The notes below the pieces were generated by a model, which made no database searches, was not told the origin of the DNA, and saw only the letters and a list, made by a program, of their open reading frames with translations. Source: Pseudomonadota bacterium (GTDB taxonomy: Bacteria; Pseudomonadota; Alphaproteobacteria; GCA-2731375). Taken from it: a DNA stretch of 35,964 bases. The stretch spans positions 1-35,964 of the forward strand of contig JAQBYC010000041.1 of assembly GCA_027623205.1 (NCBI GenBank). The letters run 5' to 3'. Of this stretch, positions 2,518-31,566 are shown in pieces. Within the stretch, counting starts at the first letter, position 1. The number at the start of each line of letters is the position of its first letter. Made by a program: the position numbers and the translations under genes.

Positions 2518-3717
2518 CTATCTTTCGATCTTAATAATATCAGCCATCCCGCTCCCCGTGACCACGGCGCCAACCCTCGTCGTAGCTTCACGTAGCGGAT
2601 CATCGGCAAGATGAGCATACCTCTGGGTCGTCTGAACCTGAGTGTGACCCAGCAACGCGCCAATCAACGGGAGCGTGGCTCCGCCGCTGACCAGGATGCT
2701 GGCGTAGGTATGTCGAAGATCATGGATGCGGACGCCTTCCAAGTCGGCCAGCTTGCAAACTTTGGCCCAGGATGACTTGAGTTCGGTCATGTGCGGATGT
2801 TTTGATCTGGCGCGAGACGGAAATACATACTCGGAACCATCGCCTTGGTCCTTGATCCCAGTGAGCAACTGAATTGCGGGCGGTGACAATGGCACTCGAT
2901 GTTCCTTCTTCTGCTTGGTGTGCGAGGATGGCTTAGTCCAGACGCCGGTCTCCAGATCGAACATCGACCAAGTCGCCGACAGAACCTCCGATCGCCTTGC
3001 CCCGGTCAACATAAGCAGTCGCAAGGCGTCGGCAACCTTTTGCGCCTCGCTGGGTCTGGCTGCCGACGCAACAAGATTTTGTAGCGCCGACGATAGCCGT
3101 CCGATTTCCTCAGGACCTAGGAACCGCTCCCGCCGTTCCTCAGGGTACCGCTCAATGCCCGATGCTGGATTTCGGTCCGTCCACTCCCATTTGATGGCCA
3201 GCGAGAACATCTTCGAGAGCAGGGCCATCGTCCTGTTGGCAGCATAGGGTGCCTCCCTCATGGAACGATGAAGCCGCTCAACGTCCGAGAAGGTTACATC
3301 TCTGATCAACCGGCGTCCCAGGCGGGGAAGTATATGCTGCTTGATCTTGGCTTGGTCGTCGCCGCTTGACCTCTTCCTCGGTGCATGAACTTCCAGATAC
3401 TCGGCGCAAAGATCGGCGACGGTGCGGCCCATTTCGACCTTATGGCGGCCCGGGTCGATCCCGTCTGCTGCCAGCACCTTCCAAGCCCGTGCTTTGACCC
3501 GCGCCTGATCAAGGGTCAAGTCGCCCACTTTGCCGAGCGTCGGCTTCTTAATGGGCGCAGAGCGTCCCCCGCCGATCCTGGTCTTGAGAATGAACGATTT
3601 GGCGCCTCTAGGTGTGACACGGAGGCCAAGACCAGGAACCTCGCCGTCCCAGACGATGCTCTCTCGGTCCTGGGCCTTGGCAGAGGCAATGATCTGTTTG
3701 GTTAACTTACGGCTCAT
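2518..3717 (-). CDS. Tyrosine-type site-specific integrase
   Basis: 399 residues of a P4/CP4-type integrase. The N-terminal arm-binding domain reads KLTKQIIASAKA...VWDGEVPGLGLRVTPRGAKSF..., then come the core-binding domain (about 95-195) and the catalytic domain. Catalytic residues are visible: Arg in TGARRSEV (about 241), His and Arg in IHDLRHTYAS (about 332/335), His in LLGHTQ (about 358) and the nucleophile Tyr in TTQRYAHL (about 367). All are present, so the enzyme looks active. These enzymes integrate islands into the 3' ends of tRNA genes, and a tRNA-Lys 3' fragment lies 135 bases upstream of its start, defining the element end. Transcription runs into the element. Confidence 0.95.
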   Translation of the reverse strand: MSRKLTKQIIASAKAQDRESIVWDGEVPGLGLRVTPRGAKSFILKTRIGGGRSAPIKKPTLGKVGDLTLDQARVKARAWKVLAADGIDPGRHKVEMGRTVADLCAEYLEVHAPRKRSSGDDQAKIKQHILPRLGRRLIRDVTFSDVERLHRSMREAPYAANRTMALLSKMFSLAIKWEWTDRNPASGIERYPEERRERFLGPEEIGRLSSALQNLVASAARPSEAQKVADALRLLMLTGARRSEVLSATWSMFDLETGVWTKPSSHTKQKKEHRVPLSPPAIQLLTGIKDQGDGSEYVFPSRARSKHPHMTELKSSWAKVCKLADLEGVRIHDLRHTYASILVSGGATLPLIGALLGHTQVQTTQRYAHLADDPLREATTRVGAVVTGSGMADIIKIER

Positions 3718-3852: not shown

Positions 3853-3899
3853 GACTTTTAATCAGTAGGTCCTCGGTTCGATCCCGGGCGGGCGTACCA
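3853..3899 (+). repeat. Attachment-site remnant: 3' half of a tRNA-Lys(TTT) gene
   Basis: The bases GACTTTTAATCAGT give the anticodon loop (CTTTTAA, anticodon TTT, Lys) with its 3' stem. They are followed by a T-arm (CTCGG-TTCGATC-CCGGG), a 7-base acceptor 3' strand CGGGCGT, discriminator A and CCA. The 5' half is absent: the bases before the loop do not pair with TCAGT beyond two positions, and no ACGCCCG acceptor start lies upstream. This is what integration into a tRNA 3' end leaves at the element end distal to the intact tRNA. Chromosome therefore starts at 3900 and the intact tRNA should lie to the left, outside the window. Confidence 0.85.
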
Positions 3900-4100
3900 A
3901 ATAACTCGTTGAAATTTCAATGATTCAAATGGGCTGGGGTCCGCGTTTTCAATACCCATTGGGGGGCTCTCCGAAGATCTGGATCTAGAGCGTGTCGCGG
4001 CATTCCTTTTCCCAGCCAGCTGGCATTCAACCGCGTCACGCAGGGGTCGTTGAGTTGACATCGCAGGCAGCTTGCGGTGGGCTCCGTCAAACTGAATATA

Positions 4101-4244
4101 ATGGAGTGGTGCGAGAAGAACGGGCGGCGCATTACCTCGATCTTTCTGGCATTGGCGTTGCTGACCTTGGTGGGATGTCAGGCGACGGGCACGCCAAGGC
4201 AAGACTCTTCCTGGGTGCCGGGCAATAGCGGCAACTCTCCTTGA
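4101..4244 (+). CDS. Possible very small lipoprotein, 47 residues
   Basis: ATG at 4101 opens 47 codons: a basic N-terminus (KNGRR), a hydrophobic stretch ITSIFLALALLTLVG and a lipobox LVGC, followed by a short polar tail rich in Gly/Ser/Asn ending at TGA. This is the plan of a small lipoprotein processed by signal peptidase II and lipidated at Cys, comparable in size (not clearly in sequence) to entericidins. An in-frame TGA eight bases before the ATG fixes the start. No good ribosome-binding site is visible, which lowers confidence. It lies between the island attachment site and the IS256 remnant. Confidence 0.4.
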   Translation: MEWCEKNGRRITSIFLALALLTLVGCQATGTPRQDSSWVPGNSGNSP

Positions 4245-4310
4245 CCGTGGTGACGGTCGCCAGACGGGTGCCGATAAAAATATACTGGGTCTACCATTGG
4301 ATTTTGCGCG

Positions 4311-4775
4311 GCGGCGGCCATCGGGGCCGACGCCCATGGCCGAGAGCACGGCGGCGTCACGCACCATGCCGCCCAGGCGCATTTTCTCGTAACGCGCATC
4401 GACGATCAGATAGCGGATCTTGCCCAGAGGGCGGTTGCGCCAGGCCGCCAATTCCTCGTCCAGCAGCACCGCGCGGGTGGAGCGCCGGCCGCGCTCAAGT
4501 GATTGCGGATAGAACGGTTCGTCATGGCCGGCGGTCTTGGGCAGGTTCACGGTGAGAGACCCGGCCGGTGTGTCGATCCGCTTGGGCTTGGTACCATTGG
4601 CATAGCCCCGTCGGGTTAAAGTACGTTCATGGTGTTCGGCGCCAAGGAAGCGCTCGCGTTCGATCCGCATGGCCAGATCGAACCGGCTGGCGAAAACCAC
4701 GCCCAGGTCCCCTGATCCATTTGCGATCAATTGTTCCATCAACGCCTCAATCGCCGTATCCTGCCCGTTCCGCAT
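4311..4775 (-). pseudogene. Remnant of an IS256-family (mutator-type) transposase
   Basis: The complement from ATG at 4775 reads MRNGQDTAIEALMEQL...GAEHHERTLTRRGYANG...LTVNLPKTA...FYPQSLERG, the standard start of an IS256-family transposase. It then reads DEELAAWRNRPLG..RYLIVDARYEK, which contains the first catalytic Asp (VDARYEK, about residue 126). Two defects are seen. First, the text jumps from RAVLL directly to DEELAAW, where family members carry roughly 40 further residues, so there is an in-frame deletion. Second, homology stops at about residue 155 and the remaining two thirds with the other acidic residues are missing, although the frame stays open to 3858. The protein cannot be an active transposase. 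Confidence 0.85.
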
Positions 4776-26003: not shown

Positions 26004-27170
26004 ATGCCAACCTTGAATTTGCCCATGGGGGATGGCGGCATGGCGCCGTTCACCACCAGCATACCCCGGGATTTTCCCAGCCGTGCCAACCGGCCTTTTA
26101 ACCGCATTGCCTATTCCGCCGCGCACGTGGTCGCCGACCCCAGATCCGATGCCGACCCCTGGCTGGAAGCCGCCATTGATTGGGATGCCACCATCGGTTA
26201 TCGCCTCGGTCTCTATGATCTGGGGCTAGGGGTGGCCGAGGCCATGGATACGGCCCAACGTGGCATGGGCCTTGACTGGCCGGCCAGTCAGCAATTGATC
26301 CGCCGCAGCCTGGATGCGGCCCGGCATATTCCGGGCGCCCGCGTCGCCTGCGGCGCCGGCACGGACCATTTGCAGCTGTCGGCGGATCTGACACTGGATG
26401 ATGTCATCGGCGCCTATGAGGAACAGGTAGCCTTTGTGGAAGGGCAGGGGGGCCGGATCATATTGATGGCCAGCCGGGCGCTGGCGGCTTGCGCCAGATC
26501 TCCCCATGACTATGCCAGGGTCTACGACCGTATCCTTGCAGGGGTGCGGGAACCGGTGCTGATCCATTGGTTGGGCGAGATGTTCGACCCCGCCTTGGCG
26601 GGTTATTGGGGCCATGCTGATCATCTGCAGGCGATGGACGTCTGCCTGGATGTGCTGGCGGCCAATGCGGCCAAGATTGACGGCATTAAAATTTCCCTGC
26701 TGGACAAGGATAAGGAGATCACCATGCGCCGGCGCCTGCCTGACGGCGTGCGTATGTACACCGGCGATGACTTTAATTATGCCGAACTGATCGCCGGCGA
26801 CGATGTGGGTTACAGCGATGCCCTGTTGGGCATATTCGATGCCATCGCACCGGCCGCGTCCGCCGCCCTGGACGCCTTTGCGGCAGGCGATGAAAAGACC
26901 TTTCACGACATCTTGGCCCCGACGGTTCCCCTGTCACGGCACATATTCGGAGCCCCGACACGGTTCTACAAAACCGGCGTGGTCTTCATGGCCTGGTTAA
27001 ACGGCCACCAGGATCATTTCGTCATGGTCGGCGGCCAGCAAAGCGCCCGCTCCCTGTTGCATCTGGCGCAGTTATTCCGGCTTGCCGACGCCGCCGGCCT
27101 GTTGCGCGACCCGGACAAGGCAGCGGCCCGGATGCAGACCATACTGGCCATGCACGGGGTGGAGGGCTAA
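26004..27170 (+). CDS. DUF993-family protein (DHDPS-like TIM barrel)
   Basis: 388 residues from ATG at 26004, two bases after the previous stop, with GGAGG eight bases upstream. The sequence matches DUF993-type proteins: FNRIAYSAAHVVADP, DWDATIGYRLGLYDLGLGVAEAMDTAQRGMGLDW, GAGTDHL, YEEQVAFVEGQGGRIILMASRALA, VLIHWLGEMFDPALAGYWGH and IDGIKISLLD, where the Lys would be the Schiff-base candidate. Such genes occur beside Gfo/Idh and sugar-isomerase genes in catabolic clusters; their reaction is not established to my knowledge. Function here is probably a lyase or aldolase step. Confidence 0.8.
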   Translation: MPTLNLPMGDGGMAPFTTSIPRDFPSRANRPFNRIAYSAAHVVADPRSDADPWLEAAIDWDATIGYRLGLYDLGLGVAEAMDTAQRGMGLDWPASQQLIRRSLDAARHIPGARVACGAGTDHLQLSADLTLDDVIGAYEEQVAFVEGQGGRIILMASRALAACARSPHDYARVYDRILAGVREPVLIHWLGEMFDPALAGYWGHADHLQAMDVCLDVLAANAAKIDGIKISLLDKDKEITMRRRLPDGVRMYTGDDFNYAELIAGDDVGYSDALLGIFDAIAPAASAALDAFAAGDEKTFHDILAPTVPLSRHIFGAPTRFYKTGVVFMAWLNGHQDHFVMVGGQQSARSLLHLAQLFRLADAAGLLRDPDKAAARMQTILAMHGVEG

Positions 27171-27181
27171 GCGCCAGCAAC

Positions 27182-28198
27182 ATGAATCGCACCATATTAC
27201 AAATCGGATTTGGCAATTTTGGGGCGACCCATCTGGCGGCCTGGCGTTCGCTAGGTCTGGCAGATGGCCTGTATGTGATTGATCCTAGCCCAGAGGCCCG
27301 GCAGCGCTGCCGCGATCTGGGCGTGCCATGGGACCATGTGGGCGAGGCGGCGGCGGCGTTCCTGGATTTGGCGGATCTGGTAGTTGTGCTCGCCCCGACC
27401 GATCGGCATTTCGAGGTTTGCCAGCCATTGCTAGCGTCGGGGAAGCATTTATTTATTGAGAAACCAATGACCGCAACCTTGGCCGAGGCCGTGCGCTTGC
27501 GGGATCTGTGTCGGGACCAGGTGGTTCAGGTGGGGTTCTATTTCCGCGCCCACCCGTTGGCGCAAATCGTCAAGCGAGAGGTGGTTGACGGGCGGCTCGG
27601 GGATCTGCGTTATATTTCGGCCCGCTTCCATGGCTACAAACGGGCCCGTGGCGATAGCGGCGTGGTGGGCAACGACGCCGTGCATTTCATTGACCAGGCG
27701 AACTGGATGATGGATGCCCTGCCAGTGGCGGTGGATGCGGTGACCCGTGATCATTTCGGCCGTGGCTATGATGACCTGGCCTTGATCCGCCTATTCTATC
27801 CCTCGGGCGCGCTGGCCCATATCGAGGTCGGCTGCATTCAACCGGGACGCTGGAACGATAATATCGTGCCCGGTTCAACACAGACCAAGGAATTTGTGGT
27901 CGCGGGCAGCGAAGGCGGCGCTGAAATCGATTATCAAACCCATCAGTTGCGTTTGCACCGGGTCCGCCACGAACTTGTCGATGGACTTTGGCGGCCGAAC
28001 AACCGTGGCGTCGAAATGCCCCATGCGCCCGTGGCCGAACCTTTTCAAGTGGTTGCGGGAGAATTCGCCGCCTTTCTGGATGCCGTGGACGGCAAAGCCC
28101 CGCTCTTGGCTGGTATCGAGGAATGCGGTGTCGGCATGGCACGCATACTGGATGCCATTCATCGATCCGCCAGTCAGGAAAACAGGATAACGTTGTGA
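27182..28198 (+). CDS. Gfo/Idh/MocA-family dehydrogenase (second copy)
   Basis: 338 residues. Nucleotide-binding motif IGFGNFGATHLAAW, then VVVLAPTDRHFEVCQPLLASGKHLFIEKPMTATLAEAV with the catalytic-type Lys, and QVGFYFRAHPL. The substrate domain includes GNDAVHFIDQANWMMD, with the usual His of the family. It is an NAD(P)-dependent sugar or cyclitol dehydrogenase, substrate unknown. It starts 11 bases after the DUF993 gene, and its TGA overlaps the GTG of the next ORF (GTGA), a sign of translational coupling. Confidence 0.9.
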   Translation: MNRTILQIGFGNFGATHLAAWRSLGLADGLYVIDPSPEARQRCRDLGVPWDHVGEAAAAFLDLADLVVVLAPTDRHFEVCQPLLASGKHLFIEKPMTATLAEAVRLRDLCRDQVVQVGFYFRAHPLAQIVKREVVDGRLGDLRYISARFHGYKRARGDSGVVGNDAVHFIDQANWMMDALPVAVDAVTRDHFGRGYDDLALIRLFYPSGALAHIEVGCIQPGRWNDNIVPGSTQTKEFVVAGSEGGAEIDYQTHQLRLHRVRHELVDGLWRPNNRGVEMPHAPVAEPFQVVAGEFAAFLDAVDGKAPLLAGIEECGVGMARILDAIHRSASQENRITL

Positions 28199-28584
28199 AA
28201 TGCGCCTTGTGCAGCGGCGTAATCCGCGAGATGTCCTTTGCCGCGCACTGCGCATACGCGGCCGCGCTGGATTATGATGGATTGGAGGTCGCGGCGATGG
28301 CGGATCGTATCGCCACCGCCAAGTTGGGCGAGGAAACGCCCGAGGCATTAATCGACAAGTGGTTGCCCAGCGGCCATGTTGCCCATATTCAGGTCAATGA
28401 CGGCAACGGCCGGGGACCAGGCCAGGGGGGCGATCATTTCGCGCCAGTCCTGTCCGCTTTGCGGCGGCACAATTATACCGGGACGATCGCGGTCGAACTC
28501 TTTGAATATTATTTTGACGGCCCGGCCTCCGCTGCCCGGGCCATTGGTTACCTGCGTGGTACTGAGGAGGCTTTGCATGTCTGA
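28195..28584 (+). pseudogene. Internally deleted sugar-phosphate isomerase/epimerase (xylose-isomerase-like TIM barrel)
   Basis: 129 residues from GTG at 28195, about half the usual 260-280. The N-terminus (LCSGVIREMSFAAHCAYAAALDYDGLEVA) and the C-terminus (ALIDKWLPSGHVAHIQVND, GRGPGQGGDHFAPVLSALRRHNYTG, ARAIGYLRGTEEAL) match the two ends of hydroxypyruvate-isomerase-like TIM barrels, but the central roughly 140-150 residues with most metal ligands are missing. The frame is intact across the joint, and the gene overlaps its neighbours by 4 and 8 bases, so it is probably still translated as part of the operon. It cannot form the usual active site on its own; treat it as a deletion derivative unless shown otherwise. 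Confidence 0.75.
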
Positions 28585-29956
28585 TCCCATTCAATTATCG
28601 GTCCTGGAAGTCCAGTTGTTCGAGCGTGATGTGACGTTGCGTATGCCCTTTCGCTTCGGCGTTACCACCCTGCGCGAAAGCCCGCAGGCGTTTGCCAGGG
28701 TCCGCATACAATTGGCCGATGGCCGGGAAGGCTGGGGGTTGGCGGCGGAAATGCTGGCGCCAAAATGGTTCGACAAGAACCTGGATTTGAGCAACGAAGA
28801 TAATTTCGAACAATTGCGCCATGCCCTGGCTACCGCCTCGGAGCTCTACCGCGCCGCGCCGCGCGCCACGGCGTTTGCCCTGTTCCGGGCTAATTATGAC
28901 GAACAAATCCGTATTTGCAGCGAGCGCGGAAACGGCTCGTTGGTGGCCTGTTATGGACCCGCGTTGCTGGACCGCGCCATCCTCGATGCCTTGTGCCGCC
29001 TGCACGACGTATCGTTCTACAAGGCGGTTCGGGCCAATTTGCCGGGTATCGAAAGCGATGAATTCGAAATTGACCCATTCCTGGCCACACTGCGCCCCGC
29101 GGACTATATCCATGCCCGGCATACGGTTGGCATGGTTGATCCGATCCGCGAAAATCCGGAGCCCGTGGGCGACGGCCTGCCTGAAACCCTGGTTGAGGTA
29201 ATCGCCGCTTATGGCCACCGCTATTTCAAGATCAAGGTTTGCGGCGACCTCGACGAGGATGCGGCCCGATTGTTGGAAATCGCCGCCGTGCTGGATGAGA
29301 GCCCGAATGATTATATCATCAGTTTGGACGGCAACGAACAATACAATGATGTGCCTGGCGTCGCGGCCCTGCTGGATGCGATCGAAGGCGACAGGCGACT
29401 GGCTCGCTTTAATCAATCCATCCTTTTTGTCGAACAGCCCATTTCCCGCGCCATCGCCCTGGATGTGGATGTTGCCTCATTGAGTGCGCGCAAGCCGGTG
29501 ATCCTGGATGAATCCGATGCCTTCCTTGGCGCTTTTCCGAAGGGCCGTGCGTTAGGCTATCGCGGGGTATCCTCAAAAACCTGCAAGGGATTCTATAAAT
29601 CGATTCTGAACGCGGCGCGCTGTGCCCATTGGGGGGAGGGGTATTTCATGTCGGGGGAGGATTTGACGACCCAGGCTGGTATTGCGGTGCAACAAGACCT
29701 GGCCTTGGTCAATCTTCTCGGCATCACTCATCTGGAGCGGAATGGCCATCATTATGTCAACGGCATGTCGGGCATGCCGGCGGGCGAACAGGCCGGGTTC
29801 CTGGCCGCCCATCCGGATCTCTATCATCAGGCCGATGGCGTGACCCGTCTGACGATCCGGGGCGGACGGATTGCCATTGGCTCGCTGGACCGTGTCGGCT
29901 TTGCCTATGGCGCGGAGCCTGATTTCTTCGCCATGAGGGAAATGCGTAATGGCTGA
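28577..29956 (+). CDS. Enolase-superfamily dehydratase (mandelate racemase/muconate lactonizing enzyme type)
   Basis: 459 residues from ATG at 28577, with GAGGAGG upstream and an 8-base overlap with the preceding ORF; longer than the usual 350-400. N-terminal capping domain MPFRFGVTTLRE. The barrel has the KxK motif (YFKIKVCG), metal ligands Asp in SLDGNEQY, Glu in FVEQPI and Glu/Asp in ILDESDAF, and a second lysine pair in SSKTCKG. Members with such residues abstract the proton alpha to a carboxylate; acid-sugar dehydratases give 2-keto-3-deoxy acids. The following aldolase gene fits this reading. Substrate unknown. Confidence 0.85.
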   Translation: MSDPIQLSVLEVQLFERDVTLRMPFRFGVTTLRESPQAFARVRIQLADGREGWGLAAEMLAPKWFDKNLDLSNEDNFEQLRHALATASELYRAAPRATAFALFRANYDEQIRICSERGNGSLVACYGPALLDRAILDALCRLHDVSFYKAVRANLPGIESDEFEIDPFLATLRPADYIHARHTVGMVDPIRENPEPVGDGLPETLVEVIAAYGHRYFKIKVCGDLDEDAARLLEIAAVLDESPNDYIISLDGNEQYNDVPGVAALLDAIEGDRRLARFNQSILFVEQPISRAIALDVDVASLSARKPVILDESDAFLGAFPKGRALGYRGVSSKTCKGFYKSILNAARCAHWGEGYFMSGEDLTTQAGIAVQQDLALVNLLGITHLERNGHHYVNGMSGMPAGEQAGFLAAHPDLYHQADGVTRLTIRGGRIAIGSLDRVGFAYGAEPDFFAMREMRNG

Positions 29957-30770
29957 TCTGGGGCGGATGTCGATCAATCAGGCCACCACGCGGGAACAGC
30001 ACAGCCTGGCCCAGGCCATTGCTGCTTATGCCCAGGCGGGTGTGCCGGGCATTTCGATCTGGCGGGATAAGTTGGCGGAATGCGGCCTGGAGGAAGCGGT
30101 CCGCATGGTGCGCGACCATGGTTTGCAGGTCTCGGGCCTGTGCCGGGCCGGTCAGTTCCCGGCAGTGGATGCAGCGGCGCGCCAGGCCTGCCTGGACGAC
30201 AATAAGAACGCCGTCGATCAGGCTGCGGTGCTGGGGGCGGACTGCCTGATTGTGGTTGCCGGCGGCCTGCCCGAAGGTTCAAAAGATCTACCAGGCGCCC
30301 GCCTGATGATCCGCGATAGCCTTGGGGCGCTTTTGCCCTACGCCCGCGCCGCTGGCGTCACTCTGGCAATCGAACCCTTGCACCCCATGTACGCCGGCGA
30401 CCGTTGTGCCATCAATACCTTAAGCCAGGCCCTGGATCTCTGTGACGAACTGGGCGCGGGTGTGGGCGTTGCGGTCGATGTCTATCATTTGTGGTGGGAT
30501 CCCATCCTACAGGCACAAATCAAACGGGCCGGCGACCGGATCCTGGCGTTTCATGTTTGCGATTGGCTGGTACCGACCACCGATCTGCTTTTGGATCGTG
30601 GCATGATGGGCGATGGCGTCATCGATATTCCGAAAATTCGGGAATGGGTCGATGACACCGGTTATGATGGCCTGATAGAAGTGGAAATATTTTCCGCTGA
30701 GAATTGGTGGAAGCGTCCGGGCGGCGAAGTTATCCGAACCTGCCAGGAACGATTTAACAAGAACGTGTGA
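29949..30770 (+). CDS. Sugar-phosphate isomerase/epimerase family protein (intact TIM barrel)
   Basis: 273 residues, normal length, overlapping the dehydratase gene by 8 bases. Xylose-isomerase-like TIM barrel with the expected metal ligands: Glu in LAIEPLHP, Asp-His in VAVDVYHLWWDP, His in LAFHVCDW and Glu in LIEVEIFS. SINQATTREQ begins the first strand. It isomerises or epimerises a keto sugar or hydroxy-keto acid. Unlike the deleted paralogue at 28195-28584 it is complete and may have made that copy dispensable, although the two are not closely similar in sequence. Confidence 0.88.
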   Translation: MADLGRMSINQATTREQHSLAQAIAAYAQAGVPGISIWRDKLAECGLEEAVRMVRDHGLQVSGLCRAGQFPAVDAAARQACLDDNKNAVDQAAVLGADCLIVVAGGLPEGSKDLPGARLMIRDSLGALLPYARAAGVTLAIEPLHPMYAGDRCAINTLSQALDLCDELGAGVGVAVDVYHLWWDPILQAQIKRAGDRILAFHVCDWLVPTTDLLLDRGMMGDGVIDIPKIREWVDDTGYDGLIEVEIFSAENWWKRPGGEVIRTCQERFNKNV

Positions 30771-30783
30771 CCAGGAGAAACCC

Positions 30784-31566
30784 ATGGCGGTGATCGCGAA
30801 TATCACGAAGCAGAAATTGGCAGCGGGCGAATTGTCCCTGGGCATGGGCGTGCGTCTGGCGCGCGGTGTCGAAATTGCCAAGGTGGCAAAGGTTTGTGGC
30901 TATGACTGGCTGTTCATCGATATGGAACACAGCCCGCTGTCCCTGGAAACCGTCGCGGATATCTCTCTTGCCGGTCTCGACGCCGGCTGTACGCCGATTG
31001 TCCGGGCCTCGTCCCACCTGCATCATCATGCCAGCCGGCCCCTGGACGCCGGCGCTCAGGGTATCGTCGTGCCTCATGTCAATTCGGCCGCGGAGGCCCG
31101 CAGAGTGGTGGACCAATGTCTCTATCCACCAATTGGCCACCGATCCTTAGCGGGTGGGGCCGCGATTCTGGAATATGACAGCCTGCCCATGGCCGAAGCC
31201 ACGCGGCTGATCAATGACAATTTGCTGGTGGTGGTTATGCTGGAAAGTCCCGAGGCCATTGCCAACGCCGATGAAATGGCCGCGATCGAGGGCGTTGATG
31301 TGCTGTTGATCGGCACCAACGACCTTTGCGCGGAGATGGGGATCCCGGGCCAGTATGATCATGAAGACGTCGTGGCGGCTTATGAGGCGACTATTTCCGC
31401 CTGCCACAACAACGGAAAACATGCCGGCATGGGCGGCATATATGATGGTCTGGCGGAAAAATATATTCGCATGGGCGTTCGCATGGTGCTGGGGGGCAGC
31501 GATTTATCTTATTTGATGTCTGCGGCGCGGCAAAGGGCAAGTGCCCTGCACAGCGTCGATTTATGA
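30784..31566 (+). CDS. HpcH/HpaI-family aldolase (2-keto-3-deoxy acid aldolase)
   Basis: 260 residues, starting 13 bases after the previous stop with AGGAG seven bases upstream. Metal-dependent class II pyruvate aldolase: catalytic His in FIDMEHSPLS, Arg in TPIVRASS, metal ligands Glu in VVMLESPEA and Asp in LLIGTNDLC, and the family signature AGAQGIVVPHVNSAAEA. Such enzymes split 2-keto-3-deoxy acids (for example 4-hydroxy-2-ketoheptanedioate or 2-keto-3-deoxyrhamnonate) to pyruvate and an aldehyde. As the last enzyme of the operon, after the dehydratase, it is the probable cleavage step. Confidence 0.92.
   Translation: MAVIANITKQKLAAGELSLGMGVRLARGVEIAKVAKVCGYDWLFIDMEHSPLSLETVADISLAGLDAGCTPIVRASSHLHHHASRPLDAGAQGIVVPHVNSAAEARRVVDQCLYPPIGHRSLAGGAAILEYDSLPMAEATRLINDNLLVVVMLESPEAIANADEMAAIEGVDVLLIGTNDLCAEMGIPGQYDHEDVVAAYEATISACHNNGKHAGMGGIYDGLAEKYIRMGVRMVLGGSDLSYLMSAARQRASALHSVDL

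Follow-up and report, generated by a model that had tools for sequence, protein, structure and literature searches.

The question raised by this locus is why an open frame that lacks the central part of a TIM-barrel protein should stand, uninterrupted, among the intact genes of an operon. The stretch of DNA analysed here (the window; 35,964 nucleotides) is one contig of G000, a draft MAG of 228 contigs, and the window's genome is represented by this single MAG. The short ORF (28195-28584, forward strand) is open from the GTG at 28195 to the TGA at 28582-28584, a length of 129 codons. Its translation and its alignment to homologues of 276 amino acids identify it as the reduced form of a gene for a ketose-3-epimerase-like TIM barrel, which is hereafter called TIM1. 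The initial annotation had described the ORF as the product of an in-frame loss of the central part of the barrel, and the 276-codon homologues that occupy the same locus in relatives bear this out.

The neighbouring genes leave almost no space around the ORF. Directly upstream on the forward strand lies the gene GFO2 (27182-28198), which encodes a Gfo/Idh/MocA oxidoreductase (Pfam PF01408, PF22725 and PF02894) and whose TGA shares four nucleotides (GTGA) with the GTG of the short ORF. Downstream on the same strand is the intact gene MLE (28577-29956), the dehydratase gene of the initial annotation. It encodes an enolase-superfamily, MR_MLE_C-like protein that is 80-91% identical across ten relatives from the genus, and the family name is somewhat uncertain because the match to PF13378 (E 2.5e-6) falls slightly under the curated cut-off. 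The end of the short ORF and the start of MLE overlap by eight nucleotides (28577-28584, forward strand, read from the sequence), and the two overlaps confirm the earlier statement that the ORF is still coupled in the operon. An intact gene for a second TIM-barrel protein (TIM2; 29949-30770, forward strand; PF01261) overlaps MLE by another eight nucleotides, which is constant in the ten genus genomes in which both ends can be read, and TIM2 is followed in the operon by the gene for an HpcH/HpaI-type aldolase (30784-31566). The upstream part of the operon contains genes for a DUF993 protein, another Gfo/Idh/MocA protein and an ABC transporter. The DUF993 protein is encoded at 26004-27170 (E 3e-185), within this sugar-type operon, and our literature search returned no paper mentioning DUF993. 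Elsewhere in the window, an ORF of 305 amino acids on the reverse strand (3858-4775) has two stretches that match a Mutator-family transposase, the best of which covers profile positions 144-195 of 379. This ORF is possibly a second internally rearranged ORF of the window, and it adjoins a phage-type integrase gene (2518-3717, reverse strand).

Full-length TIM1, of 276 codons, is found at the same locus in five other genomes of the window's genus (G001, G003, G006, G009 and G010) and in G011, which belongs to another genus of the same family. The best solved relatives of the full-length protein are D-psicose/D-tagatose 3-epimerases (2hk0, E 6e-13). The model of the G010 protein (mean pLDDT 90.6) is an eight-stranded barrel whose structural matches are the same epimerases, and PF01261 matches this protein over profile positions 2-247 of 249 with 127.4 bits. 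Judged by these similarities and by the model, TIM1 appears to be a metal-dependent sugar epimerase/isomerase-like TIM barrel of 276 residues; against all NCBIfam equivalogs tested, its score is far under the curated cut-off. Alignment to 2ou4, at what we take to be the metal-binding residues of that structure, places the putative metal ligands of TIM1 at E151, D184, Q213 and E248. Across a sample of 385 genomes of the class, 24 match TIM1 at E 1e-20, and among these 24 only the window's genome and G380 (two contig-end pieces) do not carry it at full length. Full-length TIM1 is directly upstream of MLE at 22 of 30 loci in the class, the other eight being the window, G005, one contig-end piece and five loci without TIM1.

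Compared with these homologues, the short ORF lacks 147 of the 276 codons. According to the MAFFT codon alignment, the retained 5′ part (28195-28290, forward strand) corresponds to residues 1-32 and carries barrel strands 1 and 2, as placed from the G010 model. The retained 3′ part (28312-28584, forward strand) corresponds to residues 187-276 with strands 7 and 8, together with the stop codon. Between them lies a retained island of residues 168-174 (28291-28311, forward strand), preceded by an inferred deletion of residues 33-167 and followed by another of residues 175-186. A separate protein alignment drew the joint as a single gap; over the joint codons, however, two deletions are better than single-deletion alignments by approximately 7 to 11.5 log-likelihood units. 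Two in-frame deletions, of 135 and 12 codons, are therefore most likely. The comparison with full-length homologues that had been called for has thus placed the joint, and it upholds the loss of the central residues, although probably not the single deletion that was first assumed. The deleted residues include strands 3-6 in the model of the full-length homologue, and the complete (beta-alpha)8 barrel is consequently absent from the short form. Moreover, the putative ligand E151 and, on the two-deletion reading, D184 are deleted, which leaves only Q213 and E248 of the four. PF01261 matches the short ORF only over profile positions 177-247 of 249, and the score of 28.6 bits is below the gathering cut-off of 31.1. 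Short, imperfect direct repeats (GAGG-CGC-like and CGCCA) occur in relatives close to the presumed end points. These repeats would fit a deletion of the ordinary kind between short repeats, in an ancestor of the window that is itself unseen. A full-length paralogue of TIM1 was not found in the window's genome, where the sole other match is partial (32% identity, E 0.001).

The reduction of TIM1 is not confined to the window. The operon is present in all 11 genus genomes examined, five of which have an intact TIM1 and six a reduced one. A search with the short protein matched paralogues in G002, G005 and G007, and a search with MLE revealed the reduced operon loci in these genomes and in G004. 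The distance from the GFO2 stop to the MLE start is 819 nucleotides in the five intact genomes, 378 in the window, 320 in G008, 116 in G002 and 69 in G004, G005 and G007. The remnants themselves comprise 129 codons in the window, 35 in G002 and 26 in each of G004, G005 and G007, and that of G008 is a repeat-scarred wreck in which only the two ends of TIM1 can be recognised. A stretch of about 123 nucleotides within this wreck (G008:C96, about 26149-26309; L117-L119) occurs at three more places in that genome (98, 89 and 91% identity) and is a small repeated element, for which the window's genome gave no match. Other degraded pieces with similarity to TIM1, interrupted by stops, are located off the operon (G008:C474 1772-2014 and G004:C33 45574-45690). 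In addition, the otherwise compact operon contains extra DNA between the DUF993 gene and GFO2 in L023 of G001 (2.3 kb) and in L032 of G008 (1.3 kb), and L032 has a further 1.2 kb between TIM2 and the HpcH gene.

In the tree of the operon, G000 is sister to G002, a single clade unites G004, G005 and G007, and G008 falls with G001 and G003. This topology implies that TIM1 has been lost at least three separate times in the genus. The number of separate losses is probably four, with those of G000 and G002 apart, because late inactivation is favoured on the G000 branch. A deletion shared with the sister G002 is disfavoured: if the ORF evolved without constraint once the deletion had occurred, at least 73% of the branch, the share after the split of G000 and G002 by the branch lengths of the operon tree, would have to be neutral, at a cost of about 4.6 log-likelihood units relative to the best fit. 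Two of the four inferred events are in-frame reductions (multiples of three). Backup by a paralogue was also considered as a cause of loss. G002, G005 and G007 each have a relative of TIM1 with 53-57% identity elsewhere in the genome, but G004 and the window's genome have no such close relative, so that backup does not account for the pattern. Nor do the remnants constitute a conserved family of short proteins, as the six reduced loci display four different forms; the best 80 GTDB loci by score are all full length. The initial annotation had named a widespread short form, conserved as its own family, as one observation that would speak against a deletion, and what we found instead is that every remnant differs.

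A neutral pseudogene, the initial annotation further argued, should accumulate stops. The short ORF has neither a stop nor a frameshift, and an intact orthologue is present in five of the ten other genus genomes and in G011. The retained codons of TIM1 are under relaxed constraint. Among the sites that are invariant in six relatives, nine of 70 have changed in the retained codons, compared with 25 of 1452 in six flanking genes of the window's own genome (Fisher p=1.1e-5). When each of the six relatives was taken as the focus of the same test, no significant excess was detected (p 0.086 to 0.85). The changed conserved residues in the short ORF include N7, E8, G26, P249 and P254. The branch omega of the short ORF is 0.236 against a background of 0.133, an excess that is not significant alone (p=0.12), and the omega of the flanking genes on the window branch is 0.053-0.070. 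An omega of 1 over the whole window branch is rejected (p=1.7e-4), and, with omega well below 1, some constraint on the short form may remain. The best fit to the branch makes its final 10% neutral (range about 0 to 39%), which corresponds to approximately 16 neutral substitutions in the short ORF since inactivation (roughly 0-38). The simulated chance that the frame would stay free of stops is about 0.65 (range about 1 to 0.3). Because the neutral changes are few and the chance of no stop is this high, the open frame in the window needs no special explanation, and the expectation of stops does not apply to it.

An alternative reading is that the 129-residue product is functional, for example as a half-barrel that forms a dimer or joins TIM2; the initial annotation had proposed that the short protein complements or binds the intact isomerase encoded at 29949-30770. 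Strands 7, 8, 1 and 2 are indeed neighbours in the closed barrel and make up a contiguous (beta-alpha)4 half, the branch omega is below 1, and the best of five models reaches a mean pLDDT of 74 with four strands and helices. However, pLDDT averages 51-57 in the other four models and is under 50 at the joint, two of the four putative metal ligands are deleted, the five conserved residues named above have changed, and relatives manage with 26-35 codons. TIM2, the proposed partner, is no more than a distant relative (29% over 101 amino acids), and with half of the barrel gone and conserved residues changing, the proposed partnership is unlikely. We consider a functional half-barrel of any kind to be very improbable, and the 129-residue protein is very probably without a catalytic role. 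The short form could alternatively be an artefact of assembly or binning, in which a full-length gene was collapsed in the MAG. The draft assembly consists of 228 contigs and the inferred deletions are bordered by short repeats, but the repeats at the joint are only about 5-10 nucleotides long, and repeats of this length would not make an assembly graph collapse. Furthermore, a collapse would leave the missense excess in the retained parts unexplained, and TIM1 is reduced in other ways in the independently named MAGs of relatives. We therefore give very little credence to an artefact, and assembly collapse is unlikely to be the whole story.

The explanation that we prefer, with considerable confidence, is that the short ORF is the remnant of a lost TIM1, a dispensable gene that was removed repeatedly while the rest of the operon stayed intact. 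TIM1 would have become dispensable in the genus. The two in-frame deletions of the window's lineage (135 and 12 codons) would have occurred late on its branch, probably after the split from G002, so that little time has passed and few stops have been collected. The 129-residue protein would have been freed from its old constraint. The parts that were kept would be the cis-acting ones, namely, the start codon on the upstream stop and the 3′ end with the Shine-Dalgarno sequence and the start of MLE. The sequences establish the homology to TIM1, its deletion and recurrent loss, the relaxed constraint and the retention of these signals, and from them the loss of catalysis is deduced.

These signals are retained across the genus. 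The presumed Shine-Dalgarno sequence of MLE, GAGGAGG (28564-28570, forward strand, read from the sequence), lies within the final codons of the short ORF, and all 11 genus genomes have kept GAGGAG a short distance before the MLE start, with GAGGAGA in G010. Likewise, in 11 of 11, the GFO2 stop and a start codon share four nucleotides. MLE starts with ATG in the window, whereas nine of the ten other genus genomes use GTG and one uses TTG; at 28575-28579 of the window, a missense change in the remnant (R275H) turns the GTG start of MLE into ATG. The ORF that begins at the old start overlaps MLE by the same eight nucleotides in the five intact genomes and in G004, G005 and G007, ends 12 nucleotides before the MLE start in G002, and stops 234 nucleotides short of MLE in G008, where MLE is intact. 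At five of the six reduced loci, this ORF ends within -8 to +12 nucleotides of the MLE start. RNA folding around the MLE start revealed no unusually stable structure.

The three 26-codon ORFs bear on the question of whether the frame itself is kept. Over their middle 54 nucleotides, the pairwise divergence is 30, 37 and 44%, spread over all codon positions, and the fourfold sites of the same three genome pairs, in the same order, differ by 37, 45 and 39%. Despite this neutral-rate divergence, the ORFs have acquired no stop and no change in length. Under neutrality, the probability of no stop in all three is 0.14-0.27, and that of no indel is 0.12-0.002 at assumed indel:substitution ratios of 0.05-0.15. 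By comparison, two true spacers of these three genomes vary in length (21/23/13 and 14/14/16). For this one clade, and at the assumed ratio, the 26-codon ORFs suggest that selection has acted on frame or spacing and not on the peptide.

According to one study, the coupling of native gene pairs fades within about 20-40 nucleotides and needs an overlap or a very short distance, and the last 15 nucleotides of the upstream gene are enough for it (PMC10666635). With such a range, an early stop or frameshift in TIM1 would uncouple MLE, whereas in-frame losses would not. Short ORFs that serve coupling only are, moreover, an idea already proposed (PMC12548453). It is possible, at slightly less than an even chance, that the reduced ORF is an actively kept bridge of this kind, which would bring ribosomes to MLE through its translation and not through its peptide. 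The window has the corresponding geometry, with a start at the upstream stop (-4 nucleotides) and an end at the downstream start (-8 nucleotides), and R275H gives MLE an ATG start there; the open frame of the window is nevertheless explained without selection. The end points at five of the six reduced loci agree with a bridge, but in G008 it is broken and MLE is retained, and coupling is thus not required there. The 26-codon ORFs hold their frame and exact length at neutral divergence while true spacers vary, yet the three represent one clade and one event, and the indel ratio is assumed. In addition, folding shows no hidden MLE start, MLE has a strong Shine-Dalgarno sequence of its own, and only two of the four reductions are in frame. 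The earlier suggestion that selection acts on keeping translation through to MLE is therefore supported by five loci and by the 26-codon ORFs, and weakened by G008 and by the out-of-frame reductions.

We judge the chances to be about evenly balanced that the frame has been kept partly because passing ribosomes feed MLE by termination-reinitiation. The stronger proposal, that an enzyme gene was lost from the middle of an operon and selection keeps a bridge ORF whose peptide is irrelevant, whittled from 276 to 129, 35 or 26 codons, is one that we advance tentatively and would not call probable. At TIM1-free loci outside the genus (L138, L140, L148, L158 and L159, and L164-L168 from the search of the phylum), no bridge pattern was found; the genes upstream differ there, or no clear ORF is present. 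Recency explains the open frame of the window, and the frames of the relatives may also have been kept for the passage of ribosomes.

The remnant resembles the in-frame-deleted pseudogenes of bacteria in its central catalytic loss, its relaxed constraint and its intact neighbours. It differs from them in that it has no stop or frameshift, has kept both overlaps and belongs to a gene with at least three losses in one genus. Full-length TIM1 shares fold and family with the ketose 3-epimerase and IolO-like TIM barrels (PF01261; 2hk0, 2ou4; YcjR 6wn6), whereas the short ORF is without strands 3-6 and two putative metal ligands. With the termination-reinitiation coupling described in two papers, the locus shares a start on the upstream stop and a stop at or near the downstream start (PMC10666635; PMC12548453). 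In these papers, MIRU repeats keep coupling and some short ORFs just deliver ribosomes (PMC10666635; PMC12548453). In contrast to leaders and inserted repeats, the candidate bridge ORFs here would derive from the erosion of an enzyme gene. Our search of the literature on coupling, remnants, operon pseudogenes and operon gene loss did not turn up remnants of this type, which does not prove that none has been published.

This case shows that an open frame with intact overlaps does not testify to a working short protein. It also draws attention to a step of a sugar-type catabolic operon that is recurrently dispensable. Within one genus, the stages of TIM1 loss form a natural series in one conserved operon, with five intact comparators, and this series allows a clear test of whether translation itself, without a useful product, is kept to feed the downstream gene.
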